Assembly (NCBI RefSeq): GCF_003054445.1
Contig: NC_042508.1
Coordinates: forward strand, 1,612,001-1,676,000
Direction: 5' to 3'
DNA from: Pichia kudriavzevii
Lineage: Eukaryota; Ascomycota; Pichiomycetes; Pichiales; Pichiaceae
DNA length: 64,000 nucleotides
The notes below the pieces were generated by a model, which saw only the letters and a list, made by a program, of their open reading frames with translations, ran no database searches and had not been told where the DNA came from. Position 1 is the first letter of the stretch. Every line of letters begins with the position of its first letter. A program made the translations under genes and the position numbers. Of this stretch, positions 25,475 to 41,499 are shown one piece after another.

Positions 25475-28400
25475 TCAGAATTCAGAAATTGCAACAGCAA
25501 CAGATTGGACATCATCGTGAGAAATTGAAACCTTAACGTTCTTGACACCACGCTTGTTTGCAGCTTGTAAGGCACTACCATGCAAAGTAACAGTTGGCGC
25601 ACCATTAGCAGCATGGACAATTTCAATATCTTTCAATGAAGCACCTGCACCCTTTGATTCGACTTCCAAAGATTTGAAAACTGCTTCCTTTGCAGACCAC
25701 GCACCAGCAAATGATGATCTTGGGTTAGCGGAACCAGAACAGTACTTGATTTCTTCTTCAGTGAAGTTTCTTTCGATGAAGGTTTCATTGTTGATGTTAA
25801 TCTCGGCAATTAACTCAACGTCAACACCAACACCCTTTGAACCAATCTGTTCCTTGGTCAAATTAGAGAGAACTGAAGCTGTTTTATCAGCAACCGGTGA
25901 GATGTATTTACCGTTTTCCTGCAATTCATTATCGTTGAAAACTAGCTCATCCTTTTTATTTGGAGAAACTCTTGCTAATGGATCTAAGTAAACGGATTCT
26001 TGTTGATCGTCATTGTATGGAGCGTGGTCCTTAGCAACGAAGATAGAGTTGTTCAACATACCATTGTGAATGTACGCGTATGACTTCTTTTGTCTGGATG
26101 AGACCTTAGCAGTGTAACTTTCATATTCTTCCTTCGAAAGAGCTGCGTACAAGTAATCTGGGTGAATAACAATTGCTTGTGCACCCTTTTGACCGAAACC
26201 GAAAGAGGTGACAGAAACGGCCTTGATACCATCAGTAGTGATAGTTCTGGATGGGAATAAAACATACTTGTAATCCTCCAAAACCTTATCAATATTGTCC
26301 GCATTCCTATTACCTGGAACAATACCAGTGTTTAAGATTTGAATAGCACCATTCAACATCCATGCACCTGCAGCACCCTTTGGATGACCAGTTAAGAACT
26401 TTTGGAAAACACCATAGACAGTATTACCCTCAGTTCTACCCAAGTGTTGCATCATCTTATCAACAGTTGCAGTTTCATTTTTGTCGTTAGCCTTGGTGGA
26501 TGTACCATGGAAAGAGCACACGTCCAGATCATCAATGGTTAAATTGTATGTTGCCAAAGCACCTCTAATTGGAGCAATTCTTGGATCGTTCTTCCAGAAT
26601 TCATTACCAAGTTGTCTCTGAGCATCCTTCACCTGCTTGATTGCATCTCTTTCGATTTCTTCAGTTCTTTCTCTCAAGAATTCAGATTTGTTGAAAGAGG
26701 CGTCGGACTCAGCCAACTGTGCAGCTTCTTCTTGAATGTAATCTAACTCACCTTCAGCCCAGTTTTTAATTTGAGCAATTCTGTTCTTCAGTTGCCTAGA
26801 TCTGTATTTGATATCCATCTTAGCAGATTTATACTTCAAGTCACCTTGGTATTCTCTTGCGGTAGTTAAGATACCCTTACCTGGAGCTGGAACAGATCTA
26901 CCAATTTTATCACTTGCGGTGGAACTCATCGCAACAATAGCATAAATTGGAACACCCATTTGTAAAGCTAAGGAAGCAGTCATCAAAACTTGAATACCAG
27001 AACCCTGAGCTTCCATGAAACCATTTCTAGTTGTTGTTGCTGGTCTACACATTTCATCAGGTGTTCTACCATGAGCAAATTCTTCAACTGCATTAGAAGT
27101 AGCATTCATGTTTGCGAATTCATAAGAACCTTCTTCTTGGAAGTCATCATAACCACCAACTAAGACAATCTTAGCCTTACCTGACAAAATAGTTTCGACA
27201 CCAACATCAACAGATTCCAATGCAGTAGCGCAAGCACCCACAGGTGTCTTGATTGGACCAGATGATGAAAGCAACAGCATATTAACCCAAGCAGACATGG
27301 TGTTAATGAAAGATTCTTGGAGAATATCGTTTTGAACAGGAATTTCCTTATATCTATCTCTGAACATACCCTTCAATGCAGAGACACCACCCATACCAGA
27401 ACCAGAACAGTTACCAACTTCAGAGACATGGACATATTTGTAGAACTCGTAAGGATCAGTAATACCAGCAGATAGCAATGCCTCGACGGTCGCAACTAAG
27501 ACATACAAAGTGATAGGATCAACTTGGTCAATAATATCATCTGAGATACCATAGTGTTTTGCATTCCAACCGGTTGGGATTTGTCCGGCAACTAGTCTAT
27601 CAAATCTTAATGCCTTCGGAACATACAGTGTAGCACCCTTTAAGATCTTAACAGAATATTCTTCGCCAGACTCGTCTGGGAAGACTTCAACCTTTTCACC
27701 ATGTTGTAATTGGTACTGCATTGCTGTAGGCTTGTCAGTAATAAATGGTTCTAGGTCGTGCTGAATAACAACTTCTTGAATTAATTGTTTTTTGTTTGGA
27801 TCATAACCATGGAACAACTCAGGTTCAACCAATCTGATACCAGAATGTGCAAGGATTTCTGCTTCATACTTCTTCTTAACATCAACATCATCAACTGGTA
27901 CATTGGTCTTTGCGTCAACCCAACCAGTATATTGCTTACCCTTAATGTTACCATTGAAATATTTAATGAAACCCATAATCCATGCCATCTCAATACAACC
28001 CTCGAGAGAAAATTCGCCAAAAGCTTCCATCTCCCATCTAGTTCTAGAATTACCCCAAGGACCAACTTCGGAAAAACCGGTGACAACAATAACCCTTTCA
28101 AGGTCTAACATGCCTTCGAGTTCAGGAGCCTTGGCCTTGATTTCTTCGTATGGACTAGTTTCAGGGAAGTCAAATGTTAAGTTAGCCTTTGGTTTAACTT
28201 CTGCCTTATTAAATGGAGCATCGGCATTTTCACCATTAACAATTTTATGTTCGATGGCAGTTTCAATAGAAACAGCTCTTCTAACTTCAGACGTGTTGTT
28301 AATCTCGGATCTCAACTGGTTTGTGTACTCTCTTAGGTTTTCAATAAATTGTAAACCACCATTCAAGTCGGCCATAACTGGACCTTCTTCGCACATTCTA

Positions 28401-31400
28401 ACAACTTCAGGGGTCATTAAACCTAAGATGTTGAATGCCATTTCCTTTTGGGAGAAAGTTCTCACACCCAATTTCTCAATACCTTCTGCAATCATATTGT
28501 TACCGGACATTAAACCGGTACCTCTGGTCCAACCAATGACTGCACCACAAATAGTTAAAAATGTGGACCAAGACTCTGAGTGCCATCTGTTGAATAAGGT
28601 CTCTAAGGCAAGCTTGGATTCAGAGTACAAACCGTCAGAACCAAAAGTACCGTGGTTTGGTGACAATGGCAAGATAACTTCTGCTGGTCTGGTGGTGATG
28701 TTTCTTGCCCTCTTGTTAGATGCAACTTCACCTAATAATCTCAGCAAGTTAGTTAGCATGATTCTATGTGCTAATTCGGACTTAGAGCCAATATTTTCAA
28801 CTTCGATACCAGCTTCTGGAATAGCAGCAAATGGAATAACAAAATCTAAATCCCATCCTAAACCACCCTGCTTAACATCGTCATAAATGTACTTGACTAA
28901 CGCAACAACATCTTGCTTGGAACCTTGGTTGAATGGAACAACAACCAACGCTGAACCAGATGCACCAAATCTAGAATATAAAGATTGGTAGTATTCAGTA
29001 ACCTTCTTTGAGTATCTAGAGGTAGTAACAATGACCTTAGCACCACCTGACAGTAAACCCTTCAAGACTTCTGCACCAATAGAGCCTGCACCTGCACCAG
29101 TGACTAAGGCAATCTTACCTTTGTAACTGATACCATTGACTGCACCTTTTTCTAAGCCATCCAAAAACAAAGCAGACTTGGTCTTATCGTAAACCCAAGA
29201 ATCTAACTTAGTCTTGGACTTGATGTGTAAGAAGGGAATAGTTTCTGGTGGAATAGTGGAAGAAACTGGCTTTTTAATTTCAGAGAAGTCTTTCAATGAT
29301 GCGATTTCATCGGTTTCATCATCGGTAGATTCGTTGTCTAAAACAGCAGAAACAGACTTTGAGACTTCAATTTCGTTGGATTTCTCGACGAACTCGATCA
29401 ATTGTTTGTATAAGCTTTCAATTTGCAATTGATTTTCAGCAGATGCTTGTCTGGACAAAGCCTTGTAAACCTTAGCTAAGTCTTCCTCGATAGTTGGTTT
29501 GACTTCTTTAGTCATCTCGCCACCCTTCGCCATATCGTGGACATACTCTTCGAACTTTCTACAAGAATCTCTAGAAACTTCTTCGTAATTGATGTTACCC
29601 TTAGCATCGACAGTGGTTTTTGGACCGGTTGGGTATGAAACATCCTTGAAAACAGGTGATTGGTTCTTAGAAAGCATCTCTTTACAGTTATCAATCAACT
29701 GTTGACCCAACTTCTTCGCAAGTTCGTAAGTTTCACCTTTATAAGTTGGAGTGTGGTCGATATGATACTGCATAAATTCAATCAAAGTTGGGTTTGCTCT
29801 ATTCATAATTTGAATACATTGGGTCACAGTTTCTCTATCAATTGATTTCAACTTACCAAAAATAATATCGAAGTACATGGATAGAGAGTCCTGTCTAGCC
29901 CAGTTCCAGTATGAATCGTATTGTCTAGCCTTCAATGGAGAGAAAACTGGTTTGATACCTGAGGCATAGAATTCCCCGTGTTCTTCAGCCCATAAATCTA
30001 ACTCAGCTTGTAAAACCTTAGATGCTTCCTTTTCCTTAATCAAAGATCTGTCACCCTTGGTCAAATCCAACTTGAGGTATCTTGCTAGAGTTTCTAATTG
30101 TTGACGAGCTAGGTCCTTGGTTTCTTTGGTAATTGCATCTAAAGCTGCAGTATCCATGACTGCTCCACCAGCACCTGCACTTGCACCGCCTGCACCGCCT
30201 GCAGAAAGAGAAACACCTTCAGCTGCAGCGTATTTTTGAGCGACAGTGTCAAAGAAACTCTTTGCTTCTGCTTCAGAACCTAATCTAGCAGCTGGTTCGT
30301 TTGTTAAAGCATATAATAAGACTGCATCTTGTCTACCTTGTTGCAACCCCCATCTGGATTGTAGGTACTTTCTAGCAGCACCAACAGAGAATCCACCTGG
30401 CATCTTGGAGGACATCAACTTGGCAATCAAAGTAGATGATTGCTTACCTAGAGTACCGTTAAATGAATCTTGGAATTGATCTGCCAATTCTTGCAATGGA
30501 GTGTCTTCTGGCTTTTCTGGTGTGGAACCAAATTCCTTACCCAAATCACCCAAAATTTCGTTTTGAACAGTAGACTTACCTCCAACTAAATCCTTGATTG
30601 GTTTTGACATTGGAACATCAGACAATGGTTTTTTTAACTTGTGCGCAACTAAAGTGTGTAAAACTAAGGCAGCTGGAACAGGAGCATCTGGAACATCTGC
30701 AACTGGGCCTGCGCCTGCTGCAACTGCAACAGCACCAACTGCAACAGCACCGCCGGCTGGAGCGCCCGATGAAAGAGAAACACCTTCTGCTGCAGCATAC
30801 TTTTGGGCTGCAGCATCAAAGAAAGCTTTAGCTTCTGGTTCAGAACCTAATCTGGCAGCTGGTTCGTTCGTTAGAGCATATAATAAGACTGCATCTTGTC
30901 TGCCGTGTTCTAGGCCCCATCTGGATTGTAGGTATTTTCTAGCAGCACCAACAGAGAATCCACCTGGCATCTTGGAGGACATCAACTTGGCAATAAGAGA
31001 TGAGGTTTGAGAACCTAAGGTACCATTGAAAGAACCTTGGAATTGATCTGCCAATTCTTGCAATGGAGTGTCTTCAGGCTTTTCTGGAGTAGCACCAAAT
31101 TCCTTACCCAAATCACCCAAAATTTCATTTTGAACAGTAGACTTACCACCAACTAAGTCCTTGATGGTCTTAGTCATTGGAATATCCTCCAATGGTTTCT
31201 TTAACTTGTGAGCAACCAGAGTACGCAAAACCAAGGCAGCTGGGACAGGAGCATCTGCAACACCTGCAACTGGGCCTGCTGGCGCTGGCGCTGCTGCAAC
31301 AGGCGCTGGAGCTGCTGCAACCGGTGCTGGTGCAGAAGAAGATGCAGCTGGAGCTGGCTCTGAAGATTCTTCTTCCAAGTCAGCAGGATCTGCAGTGTAG

Positions 31401-31798
31401 TAGATTTCCTTTTGGTCCTTGGAGTAACATAAAACTTGTCTTTGAAGAGACAATGCTGCATCGTATGACTCGTACTTGTTCTTGATGGTTCTAGTGGCCA
31501 TACCTGCCAATGTAGGAGATGGGCCGATTTCAACCACCCTTTCGGTGTTGTAGTCTCTTAGGAAAACATCTTGAGTTTCAATCCTGTATTTATCAATAGG
31601 TTTTCAAGGTAGAAAAAACAAAGGTTAGTATATGATCCAATCATAGGTCTTATTTAATATGGGTTAGCTCTTGATAGAAGATGAACAGGGAAAAGTTTTT
31701 TTTTCAAGTACATACCATCTAACTGGGGATGCAAATTGATAAGCTAAAAGCTCTGTTAAAAGAATGTGAGAAAGTTCTTGTTGGACTTCTGCTCTCAT
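25475..31798 (-). CDS. FAS2: Fatty acid synthase alpha subunit with tandem ACP domains (spliced)
   Basis: Spliced on the minus strand: exon 1 is 31716-31798 and exon 2 is 25475-31583, giving 2063 residues (S. cerevisiae has 1887). The join rebuilds the conserved SPVRWIETQDVF. Known role: the alpha subunit of the cytosolic alpha6-beta6 type I synthase. Domains seen: two ACP modules (about 138-300 and 327-488) with phosphopantetheine serines 176 and 365 in [11 protein letters not shown], ketoreductase with [12 protein letters not shown] near 855, ketosynthase with active Cys1479 in [10 protein letters not shown], and C-terminal phosphopantetheine transferase (GVGVDVE from about 1945). Ala/Pro/Gly-rich linkers flank each ACP. 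The second ACP is unusual for an ascomycete alpha subunit. No other break or missing catalytic residue was seen. Confidence 0.97.
30203..31255 (-). repeat. In-frame tandem duplication of the FAS2 ACP module
   Basis: Copy 1 starts at 31255 ([10 protein letters not shown]) and copy 2 at 30688 with the same residues, a period of 189 codons (567 bases). Copy 2 ends near 30203 at GVSLSAGG. The unit spans the canonical ACP helices, the fungal structural subdomain ([20 protein letters not shown]) and an Ala/Gly/Val linker. The copies are nearly identical over most of the domain and diverge mainly in linkers and scattered positions. Confidence 0.95.
31584..31715 (-). other. FAS2 intron
   Basis: A 132-base phase-2 intron that splits a Trp codon (TG|G). 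Read on the minus strand it starts GTATGT, contains TACTAAC, and ends ATACAG. Confidence 0.93.
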
Positions 31799-37950: not shown

Positions 37951-39576
37951 GTCTGTGTTTAACTATGGATTTCAGTAGAGTGGTATTATGGTATCGATTG
38001 TTTTCAAAATGGTTGTCACAATGAAAAGCCCCAAGATAATCAAATGGAAAGTACCTAATGTGCTATTGCGATGTCTTGTCCAAAAATAATGTTGCTAGAG
38101 CAAAAGTAATATATAAATGAGGGAATGGCAAATAGAAAATGGCAAATGTAGAGATTGCTAGACAAGTCGCTTCACCGGTTGTTAAAATTTGTACCGAGTT
38201 TCAACAGAATCTCGTGGGGTTTCGGTAAGAATAGAAGAAGATACCAAATGAGGACGGGAGTGGAACACTGTCAAATGTAATAAGAAGCTACCAATAGAGA
38301 AAAAATCGTTCTCTTTTGTTTGTGGAGTGTGTCTGTAGGTGTATCTCCTAATTTACCTCTCTTTGAATGTCTGCTATTGTTCAGGTGTTTATATTATCTC
38401 GAACTTTAAAATGGTGTCTCTCTCTGTGAGTCGCTATACTGGAAATCCCAACTGCTCTCTACCTTGAAACGAGTCCACCTTATACGGCGATTTTTCGGTG
38501 CGACTCTTGCGAGAAAAAAAAAAAAAAAAAAAAAATCCACTGGACAAATTCGAGCATTCTCTTTGCAGAACTGATTTTTCGTCCGCGCCAGCTTCTCCTT
38601 TTTTTTTTTTTTTTATGTCTGTGTTTTACTTTAGCCGTTTCTAGTGGAATCGAATAACGATCTCGTAGAAGGCGAAGCATTTGGAAATGGCCAAAAGGGG
38701 AAATACAAAAACAAGGACAATTGTAAACAGAATGTAGTACTTTTTATTTTTAAGTTTAATTTTATGTTTATTATGATACTGATAGTTAGAGGAGAATTTA
38801 CAGAAAAGAGATTCTAAAGGGGCGAGGAGGAGGGAGTAAAGAAAGTAAAAAAAGTAAAGAGAGACAACCACCTCTTTGTATTGTTTAATGGAGAAGAAGG
38901 GCAGGAACTTCTGATGGCTTTATTTGTCTATATCTTTTCTACTTTCTTGGTCTAGTACTTTCAAATATCTGTTGCTTTTCATTTAATTTGGGTCCAAACA
39001 CCTGTGCACCGAGAAGTTCAGATGGAAAAGTAGAAAACGGATTATTTTATTAAAAAAAAACAAAAAAAAAGTCTCTGTAATGCGCCACATTGCTAGAGTG
39101 TAATTACATCTACAGCAAGCAAGCAAAAAAAAAACAAAAAAAAAACGAAAAACGAAAAACGAAAAAGGAAAAAGGAAAAAAGAAAAAGGAAAAAGAAAAA
39201 GGAAAAAGGAAAAGTTTCACTGGCTGTCGATGCATGCGCCACGCTAGAGGAACGGGGTTTTTTTTTTTGTTTTTTTTTTCTCGGGTTTTGTGTCGTTGTT
39301 ATTTTATGATAATCGAACCACTCTCTATAAGGAGATGCTCTATATTGCCATTCGCATAATGATTGATACTCGAGCTGTCTTTTTTTTTTTCTTTTTTTCA
39401 GTTTTTTCAATTTTTTTTTTTTTATTCAAACTTTTCACTATCAATCATGTCATTGTAGAAACGGCTTGGATTTCTTCGTTTACTTTACGACTCTCCAATA
39501 CAAGACTTTCTCTCTGTTTGATCCTTGTAGTTTCCTTTCTTTGATCTTTTTAAAAAGGTATAGGATCGTTTGTAAT
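37951..39576. promoter_or_regulatory. Divergent spacer SSO2 / TPA1 with homopolymer tracts
   Basis: A 1.63 kb divergent spacer. It holds a 22-base A run (38514-38535), a 16-base T run (38599-38614), a polypurine tract (39125-39213) built of AAAAAC, AAAAACG and AAAAAGG units, and T runs near 39381-39423. No convincing ORF or RNA gene. Probable promoters with nucleosome-excluding dA:dT tracts. Confidence 0.5.
39125..39213 (+). repeat. Polypurine tract, A-rich
   Basis: About 89 bases of almost pure purine with the word GAAAAA repeated at 5-7 base spacing, about 360 bases upstream of TPA1. Confidence 0.85.
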
Positions 39577-41499
39577 ATGACTTCAAAGAGAACACCAACA
39601 CAGACCATAAACGATACCATCACGCCAAAGAAGAAGATATCCATCAAACAAACCCCTGAAGAGGAAGCACAGGCTAAACAGTACTTCCAATCGCATGTCT
39701 TTGAAGACTCCTTCAGAGAACAGCTTACCAAGAATGTCAGGGAGTCCCAGCCTTATCGATGGGGGACCATCAAGAATTTGATAAACGACCAACTTCTGAG
39801 AAACGTCAGAAGTGAAATTATGTCCGAAATCGAATTCACAAAGAAGGAGACCGATATCTACAAGGTGTTCCAGTCCGGTGATTTGGCCAATCTCTCTGCC
39901 ATGCCTCAAGACCTACTTGAGAGATTGCCTAGTCTCTACAAGTTAAGATCTGCAATTTACTCGGAATCGTTTCGTTCCTTTATCTCCGCCGTAACGGGCT
40001 GTGGTAAATTGAGTGGAATCAAAACAGATTTGTCAATCCAACTATACACAAAAGGATGCCACTTACTCACCCATGATGACGTTATTGGCTCCCGTAGAGT
40101 CTCATTCATCCTGTATATGCCAGACCCCGATTCACACTGGAAATCCCACTACGGTGGCGGCTTGCAACTCTTTGATTCGTTGGTTCCTAACGTGCCACAG
40201 TCTGATGTTCATTCAAAATTGAATCCTGCATTCAACCAAATAGCTTTTTTCCAAGTTCAGCCAGGCCTCTCGTTCCATGCCGTTGAAGAAGTCAAGGTCG
40301 ACAGACAGAGACTCTCCTTACAAGGATGGTTCCATATCCCTCAAAAGGGTGAAGATGGCTACATACCTGGTGAACAGGAGAAAACTGAAAGCTTATCCAC
40401 CTTACAAGCTTTGGAATCCAAAGAATTGAAGGAGTATGATTTCCCAAAACTTAGATTCACTTCTATCCCAGCCCCAATTTCCCTAAAAGGTAACGACAAG
40501 TTGACATTGAGTGACTTGGATAAGGAGTATCTAACAAAATTTATCAACCCCTCATTGCTAACATCTGAGTCCATTGCCAAATTAGGCGAAATATTCAATG
40601 AAGAGTCTGTTGTTGATATAATGTCCTTTCTGAATAAAGACTATGAGGGTGCATTTAAACAACTACTCAAAAACACGGAAATTAACGAGTTCCCCCCAAT
40701 GCCAACACTTCAAACCCAAGTTGAAGAGGCATATCCTTGGAAATTGGCTATACCATGTCATAAGCAACGATATGTTTATATTGATGGCGCCAACGAGGAA
40801 GATATAAACACCCCAAAAAGTATCTCCCAAATCAACCAGGTCAAAGTTGACTCAACCAACGGTGTGAATTTTGAAATGAGTGCAAAGATCTTCAGATTAA
40901 TGGATCAAATTCCTGACTCCAAATTTGATGAGGTTAAAAAAGAAAATCCTCATGCTGTCAGAAACTTGGAGATATCAGCAAAGTTGTGTGATTTGGCAGC
41001 TATGTTCAAATCGCAGTCATTCCACAAATGGATCACACTAATAACGCAGCTCAAGCTCGTCAAGAACCATACTCTAATCAGAAGGTTTAGACCTGGTTAT
41101 GATTTTATCCTTGCTACTAATAATACCGGTGATGAAGAAAATGAGCCTAATATAATGGAAGGTGTGTTAGAATCAACACTGAACTTGACACCAACACAAG
41201 GATGGGAAACAGGTGAATGGGGAGGATATGAGTTGTGCCTGATTGACGATGACCATTCAGACAAGAAACTCGGAGATGACTTGCAAAAAGATGATGGATT
41301 AAATGAGGATGAAGCCGCAATATACAGAACAGCAGATCAAGATAGTGTTGTATATGAAAGTCAAGCATGTTGGAACAAGTTCTCCTTGATGTACAGAGAC
41401 CCTAGTGTTATGAAATTCGTCAAATATGTCAGTTTTGAGGCACCAGGTTCAAGATGGGATATCAACTGTAGTTGGAAGTGCATTGATGAATCAGAATGA
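39577..41499 (+). CDS. TPA1: Tpa1, ribosomal prolyl hydroxylase (OGFOD1 family)
   Basis: A 640-residue 2-oxoglutarate/Fe(II) dioxygenase with the two-domain layout of Tpa1 (S. cerevisiae 644). Known role: hydroxylates a proline of ribosomal protein Rps23 and affects translation termination, with Ett1. Seen: iron ligands His166 and Asp168 (LLTHDDV), His234 (LSFHAVEEV), and the 2-oxoglutarate Arg245 (RQRLSLQGW); all four lie seven residues after their S. cerevisiae counterparts (159, 161, 227, 238). The C-terminal domain ends in SRWDINCSWKCIDE. I chose ATG 39577 because upstream in-frame sequence has no ATG. Identification is firm. Confidence 0.95.
   Translation: MTSKRTPTQTINDTITPKKKISIKQTPEEEAQAKQYFQSHVFEDSFREQLTKNVRESQPYRWGTIKNLINDQLLRNVRSEIMSEIEFTKKETDIYKVFQSGDLANLSAMPQDLLERLPSLYKLRSAIYSESFRSFISAVTGCGKLSGIKTDLSIQLYTKGCHLLTHDDVIGSRRVSFILYMPDPDSHWKSHYGGGLQLFDSLVPNVPQSDVHSKLNPAFNQIAFFQVQPGLSFHAVEEVKVDRQRLSLQGWFHIPQKGEDGYIPGEQEKTESLSTLQALESKELKEYDFPKLRFTSIPAPISLKGNDKLTLSDLDKEYLTKFINPSLLTSESIAKLGEIFNEESVVDIMSFLNKDYEGAFKQLLKNTEINEFPPMPTLQTQVEEAYPWKLAIPCHKQRYVYIDGANEEDINTPKSISQINQVKVDSTNGVNFEMSAKIFRLMDQIPDSKFDEVKKENPHAVRNLEISAKLCDLAAMFKSQSFHKWITLITQLKLVKNHTLIRRFRPGYDFILATNNTGDEENEPNIMEGVLESTLNLTPTQGWETGEWGGYELCLIDDDHSDKKLGDDLQKDDGLNEDEAAIYRTADQDSVVYESQACWNKFSLMYRDPSVMKFVKYVSFEAPGSRWDINCSWKCIDESE

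Follow-up and report, generated by a model that had tools for sequence, protein, structure and literature searches.

Two tandem ACP domains in the fatty acid synthase alpha subunit of Pichia kudriavzevii, functional-looking and most likely of independent origin

The fatty acid synthase (FAS) alpha subunit of Pichia kudriavzevii, Fas2, carries two tandem ACP domains. Judged from its sequence, this two-ACP Fas2 is real, looks functional and most likely evolved independently. The explanation that best accounts for the whole, to which we give a probability of about 0.65, is a lineage-specific duplication that would provide two carriers working in parallel and raise throughput without a change in chain length.

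FAS2 lies on the minus strand of the window (the whole 64,000-nucleotide stretch of DNA analysed) and consists of exon 1 (31798-31716) and exon 2 (31583-25475), which together encode an alpha subunit of 2063 residues. Before intron removal the gene appears in the list of open reading frames as the minus-strand frame 25475-31537. Removal of a 132-base intron (31584-31715, minus strand; GTATGT...CAG, inside codon 28), predicted from the reading frame, supplies the N-terminus: the spliced frame starts with the ATG at 31798, has its sole stop at its end, shows GT..AG junctions and yields an N-terminus that fits yeast Fas2. Exon 2 encodes the end of MPT (presumably, as placed from yeast Fas2), ACP1, ACP2, the helical domain, KR, KS and PPT. 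In a Pfam search the frame matched PF18325 (fungal FAS alpha ACP) in two stretches and then FAS_I_H, adh_short (KR), KS and ACPS, and so presents the domains of the Fas2 class in order, with the KR match at 25.7 bits just below the Pfam cut-off of 26.6. The best solved relatives are 7bc4 and 2uv8, both matched near full length at E 0, together with 6u5v; we take these to be the FAS alpha subunits of Komagataella, S. cerevisiae and Candida albicans, respectively. We note that the public protein P0001 begins at residue 56 of the window Fas2, where intron-free gene calling probably missed exon 1, and that the same cause may have shortened the N-terminus of other relatives, which are 1816-1844 aa long. 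An open frame of 327 aa antisense to FAS2 (27903-28886, plus strand) is most likely spurious. Near FAS2 lies a gene for an Ofd1-type 2-oxoglutarate oxygenase (39466-41499, plus strand), a family that includes a sterol/oxygen regulator.

On the minus strand, an Ala/Pro-rich, low-complexity N-terminal tether (31262-31399, upstream end approximate) leads into ACP1 (30773-31261; residues 136-298, pantetheine serine 176), which is joined by an Ala/Gly/Val linker of 26 residues (30695-30772) to ACP2 (30206-30694; residues 325-487, pantetheine serine 365); a Gly/Ala-rich C-terminal tether follows (30137-30205, end approximate). The tandem period is exactly 189 residues, seen in a repeat search of the DNA as a 567-base spacing. 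The two cores are identical at 146 of 163 residues (17 differ) and differ at 64 of 489 bases; they are co-linear and gap-free across all 163 residues, which excludes a chance repeat. The solved yeast ACP, 2ml8, was matched across the whole domain by ACP1 (E 7.9e-75) and by ACP2 (E 4.9e-77), and both copies share 72-73% identity with the S. cerevisiae ACP, from which the ACP fold of each follows. The 13-residue serine motif is the same in the two copies. Each of the two tandem domains is thus a complete ACP with its pantetheine serine. The first-pass annotation had described a 189-residue unit present twice, with full ACPs and intact serines at 176 and 365, and the two PF18325 stretches, the 2ml8 matches and the period bear this out; the interval that it gave, 30203-31255, begins where ACP2 ends and finishes where ACP1 starts, to within a few bases.

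Both ACPs are under strong purifying selection. A comparison of the two gives dN 0.061 and dS 0.498, a dN/dS of about 0.12. Counted per site, there are 42 changes at 115 synonymous sites and 22 at 374 non-synonymous sites (pS 0.364 vs pN 0.059; Fisher p 7e-15, with sites treated as independent). The contrast is conservative, since dS would be reduced if a gene of this kind strongly favours certain codons. A few residues set the copies apart from single-ACP proteins. ACP1 has G211, S219, E253 and H254, all rare among single-ACP rows, and ACP2 has one odd residue, T412; at a further site, lysine in both copies takes the place of the arginine seen in 159 of 160 single-ACP rows. Serine 219 of ACP1 stands where 160 of 160 such rows have lysine, so that a competence of ACP1 equal to that of ACP2 is not assured. 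Against the Pichia-group consensus, seven changes are found in ACP1 only and five in ACP2 only, a difference that is not significant (p 0.77), and both copies differ from it at five more. Going by sequence, both carrier arms look functional.

We searched the five-contig P. kudriavzevii assembly (10,791,929 bases), in which the FAS2 window lies on contig 3, and found one FAS2 and one FAS1. The partner beta subunit was recovered as a single PF08354 match within a frame of 2057 aa (FAS1). No second FAS2 was found elsewhere in the genome; the sole other match is 25% identical, covers the KS region alone and is, we assume, the mitochondrial ketosynthase. Searched with the tandem DNA, and with only the best candidates scored, the genome returned one match, the tandem itself. 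Of five oligonucleotides tabulated for Candida krusei, a synonym of P. kudriavzevii (PMC12946185), three were searched in the assembly: two have exact matches at a single site on contig 1, where they overlap end to end, and the third has none with up to one mismatch.

Phylogenetic analysis places the duplication within the Pichia group. In three ACP trees ACP1 and ACP2 are sisters (99/98, SH-aLRT 98 and 100/98), and the pair is nested within the Pichia group, where the internal forks have weak support. It lies far from the Rhodotorula ACPs, contrary to descent from the R. toruloides duplication. In an ACP-free tree of 54 proteins the window Fas2 falls among 13 relatives (P0002-P0014), 13 of 13 with a single ACP, and closest to P0002 (SH-aLRT 99). 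For eleven of the 13 the contig is about 8 to 82 kb long, and one of these could hide a collapsed repeat; one ACP is also found in P. californica (P0008) and in Martiniozyma (P0013), the latter on a 1.8-Mb contig. The single ACP of the 13 nearest relatives and the sister grouping of ACP1 and ACP2 make a lineage-specific, independent duplication in a budding yeast the most likely origin, in agreement with what the first-pass annotation had proposed.

Tandem ACPs are not confined to this yeast. The best 120 from each of three sets of 1281, 1280 and 1432 matches gave 281 distinct proteins, of which 71 have two ACPs, 210 have one and none has three; 71 of 281 is not a frequency, because two of the three protein searches rank tandem proteins first. 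Among the matches listed, tandems carry the names Rhodotorula, Sporobolomyces, Rhodosporidiobolus, Phenoliferia and Saccharomycopsis and, outside Dikarya, those of Mucor, Mortierella and their kin, of Chytriomyces and other chytrids, of Piromyces and of the oomycetes Phytophthora and Pythium. A tandem partial record (P0135) is labelled Diplonema, and a tandem transcript record (P0215) is taken to be from Euglena, our reading of that record. The first-pass annotation had named R. toruloides as the known two-ACP fungal case: the tandem is indeed there, but that range was too narrow, as the genera above show. Tandem ACPs are therefore less rare than it implied, and P. kudriavzevii adds one more example of a design already known. 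Outside Dikarya, two ACPs are frequent in type I FAS among the matches listed (P0179-P0275; Mucor, Mortierella, chytrids, Piromyces, oomycetes), in a listing that favours tandems, and in fungi a FAS with one ACP may chiefly be a trait of Dikarya. In titles and the opening lines of abstracts, our literature search found no mention of a two-ACP FAS in P. kudriavzevii, which is weak evidence of absence, as subscription papers lay mostly outside the search.

The tandem proteins share two further features. The inter-ACP linker measures 22-33 residues in 69 of 70 tandem proteins (median 26.5; window and P0001 included, P0148 and P0210, each with a cut copy, left out) and 46 in the remaining one; it is low-complexity sequence, yet of near-constant length across separate lineages. 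The pantetheine serine is present in 143 of 144 ACP copies from 72 tandem proteins, again including the window and P0001 (139 by pattern and four, with a variant neighbour, by eye), and the remaining copy is cut short. Some Rhodotorula kin have one ACP (Microbotryum P0218 and P0220; R. graminis P0209 and P0211). P0209 is exactly 189 residues shorter than P0124 of R. toruloides (2739 vs 2928), which would fit either a recent loss or a collapsed assembly repeat; where single-ACP proteins occur inside tandem groups (R. graminis, Rhizopus), an error in the gene model or the assembly may be the cause. Fungal-type FAS alpha genes also occur in records labelled Deltaproteobacteria bacterium PRO3 (P0148, two ACPs) and Kocuria palustris (P0069), probably through eukaryotic contamination.

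We propose that a cassette of one ACP plus its Ala/Gly tether (189 codons) was doubled in tandem after the split from the nearest sampled relative. The tethers on both sides of the ACPs are low-complexity Ala/Pro/Gly repeats, and the doubling would probably have occurred by unequal exchange between them. Both ACPs would be pantetheinylated by the built-in PPT domain, and an alpha6-beta6 barrel of the known structure would hold twelve carriers, six per chamber. The second carrier would work in parallel, one ACP fetching malonyl while the other bears the growing chain, which would raise carrier concentration and throughput and leave chain length unchanged. More carriers per chamber, and hence throughput rather than chain length, would thus be the likely role. 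The support is by analogy. In PUFA synthases productivity rises with ACP number at an unchanged profile, according to the abstract of PMC5067506. In S. cerevisiae, expression of the R. toruloides FAS increased both lipid and free fatty acid, and the authors suggest that its two ACPs may help; the passages available from that paper do not trace the gain to the second ACP (PMC4894961). Fatty-acid composition was left unchanged by this FAS, as a review states (PMC10293357), which weakens the case for a chain-length effect. Crowding could cut the other way, since a docked ACP in yeast FAS blocks neighbouring sites for others (PMC7260205). If the limit is set by KS or by the supply of malonyl, additional carriers would not necessarily help, and a crowded chamber could slow shuttling. 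To our knowledge, P. kudriavzevii is not regarded as a high-lipid yeast.

The tandem could owe its existence to the assembly rather than to evolution, one ACP having been doubled by misassembly or as a strain artefact, and tandem repeats are a classic site of assembly errors. We regard this as scarcely credible. Divergence at 64 of 489 core bases is far above the strain diversity of P. kudriavzevii (3.95 SNPs/kb; PMC6053246), which rules out an assembly duplication, and P0001 has the same ACP tandem and differs from the window at three of 2008 residues; P0001 represents a public cluster of 26 proteins, and the comparison is with P0001 alone. The first-pass annotation had named misassembly as the alternative to exclude, and we reject it on the divergence of the copies and on this second sequence. 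An old tandem, ancestral in budding yeasts, lost in most and kept alike by gene conversion, is disfavoured and very improbable. Tandems are numerous among the rows listed from outside Dikarya, the copies share a single run of 19 identical codons that is longer than expected (permutation p 0.04) and could mark conversion, and there is no formal rejection of trees in which the two yeast lineages are united by their A1s alone (p-AU 0.086) or by their A2s alone (0.071). However, such an origin requires the tandem to have been lost in each of the 13 close relatives sampled, as well as in other yeasts of the tree, and a topology that joins the six budding-yeast tandem ACPs in a single clade is rejected (p-AU 0.012); the four Saccharomycopsis-type ACPs cluster weakly (87/36). 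Gene conversion was also considered as the main story and set aside, the single 19-codon run not being decisive.

Other readings concern what the second carrier does. It may work and yet bring no measurable gain, having been fixed by chance and then kept because its loss or poisoning harms the megasynthase, a possibility that we consider somewhat unlikely. The low-complexity flanking tethers lend themselves readily to duplication, the number of ACPs has shifted several times (at fewest six changes on the 54-row tree) and the 13 closest relatives in that tree have one ACP. Both copies are nevertheless under strong purifying selection, although selection against misfolding or jamming would give the same, and both serines are retained in other tandem lineages. 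A division of labour, in which a wall-anchored ACP1 (on the N-tether) and a hub-anchored ACP2 (on the C-tether) serve different active sites and diverge, is distinctly unlikely. The longer branch of ACP1 (0.13 vs 0.05), its rare residues and the separate grouping of A1s and A2s in the Saccharomycopsis pair (100/100) point that way; the lineage-specific changes are not different in number, ACP2 has its own odd residue and the serine motif is identical. Broader still, and in our view rather unlikely, tandem ACPs on a tether of about 26 residues might be an adaptive arrangement that has arisen repeatedly in type I FAS, on at least three occasions in Dikarya (P. kudriavzevii, Saccharomycopsis, Rhodotorula kin), with carriers tethered asymmetrically (ACP1 wall-side, ACP2 hub-side) and starting to specialise; if so, P. 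kudriavzevii would be a recent natural experiment. We favour two carriers acting in parallel after a lineage-specific duplication.

P. kudriavzevii is a yeast of industry and also an opportunistic pathogen (PMC6053246, abstract). With its sampled close relatives having a single ACP, it offers a clean natural comparison on whether carrier number limits fungal FAS, a question that has been asked about R. toruloides and in the engineering of yeast oils. Even in budding yeasts, a barrel with six carriers is not the general rule, and structural studies of Mucor/Mortierella kin, chytrids and oomycetes should expect to meet barrels with twelve.

Among known systems, the single-ACP Fas2 proteins of S. 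cerevisiae, Komagataella and Pichia californica share the domain order of the window protein, and their ACPs are 72-84% identical to its own (117 to 137 of 163); they differ in having one ACP and in being about 190 residues shorter. PUFA synthases belong to another megasynthase class, and their ACPs are small, lack the fungal structural subdomain and come in more copies. They resemble the present case in carrying head-to-tail carriers, with productivity that climbs with their number (PMC5067506, abstract). The Saccharomycopsis crataegensis Fas2 (P0121) and P0122 are of the budding-yeast type, with two ACPs and linkers of 26-27 residues, and Saccharomycopsis is a second budding-yeast two-ACP case. 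Its duplication, however, looks older, with A1s and A2s each in their own group, and a single clade with the P. kudriavzevii pair is rejected, as described above. The two-ACP FAS of R. toruloides likewise has two tandem fungal ACPs, of the same length as those of the window protein and with the serine in both, here joined by a 28-residue Ala/Gly/Pro linker. In contrast to the window protein, its subunits are split differently, the alpha subunit (2928 aa) also containing MPT and DH according to PMC10293357, its tandem region is 53% identical to that of the window, and its ACPs are placed apart in the tree.
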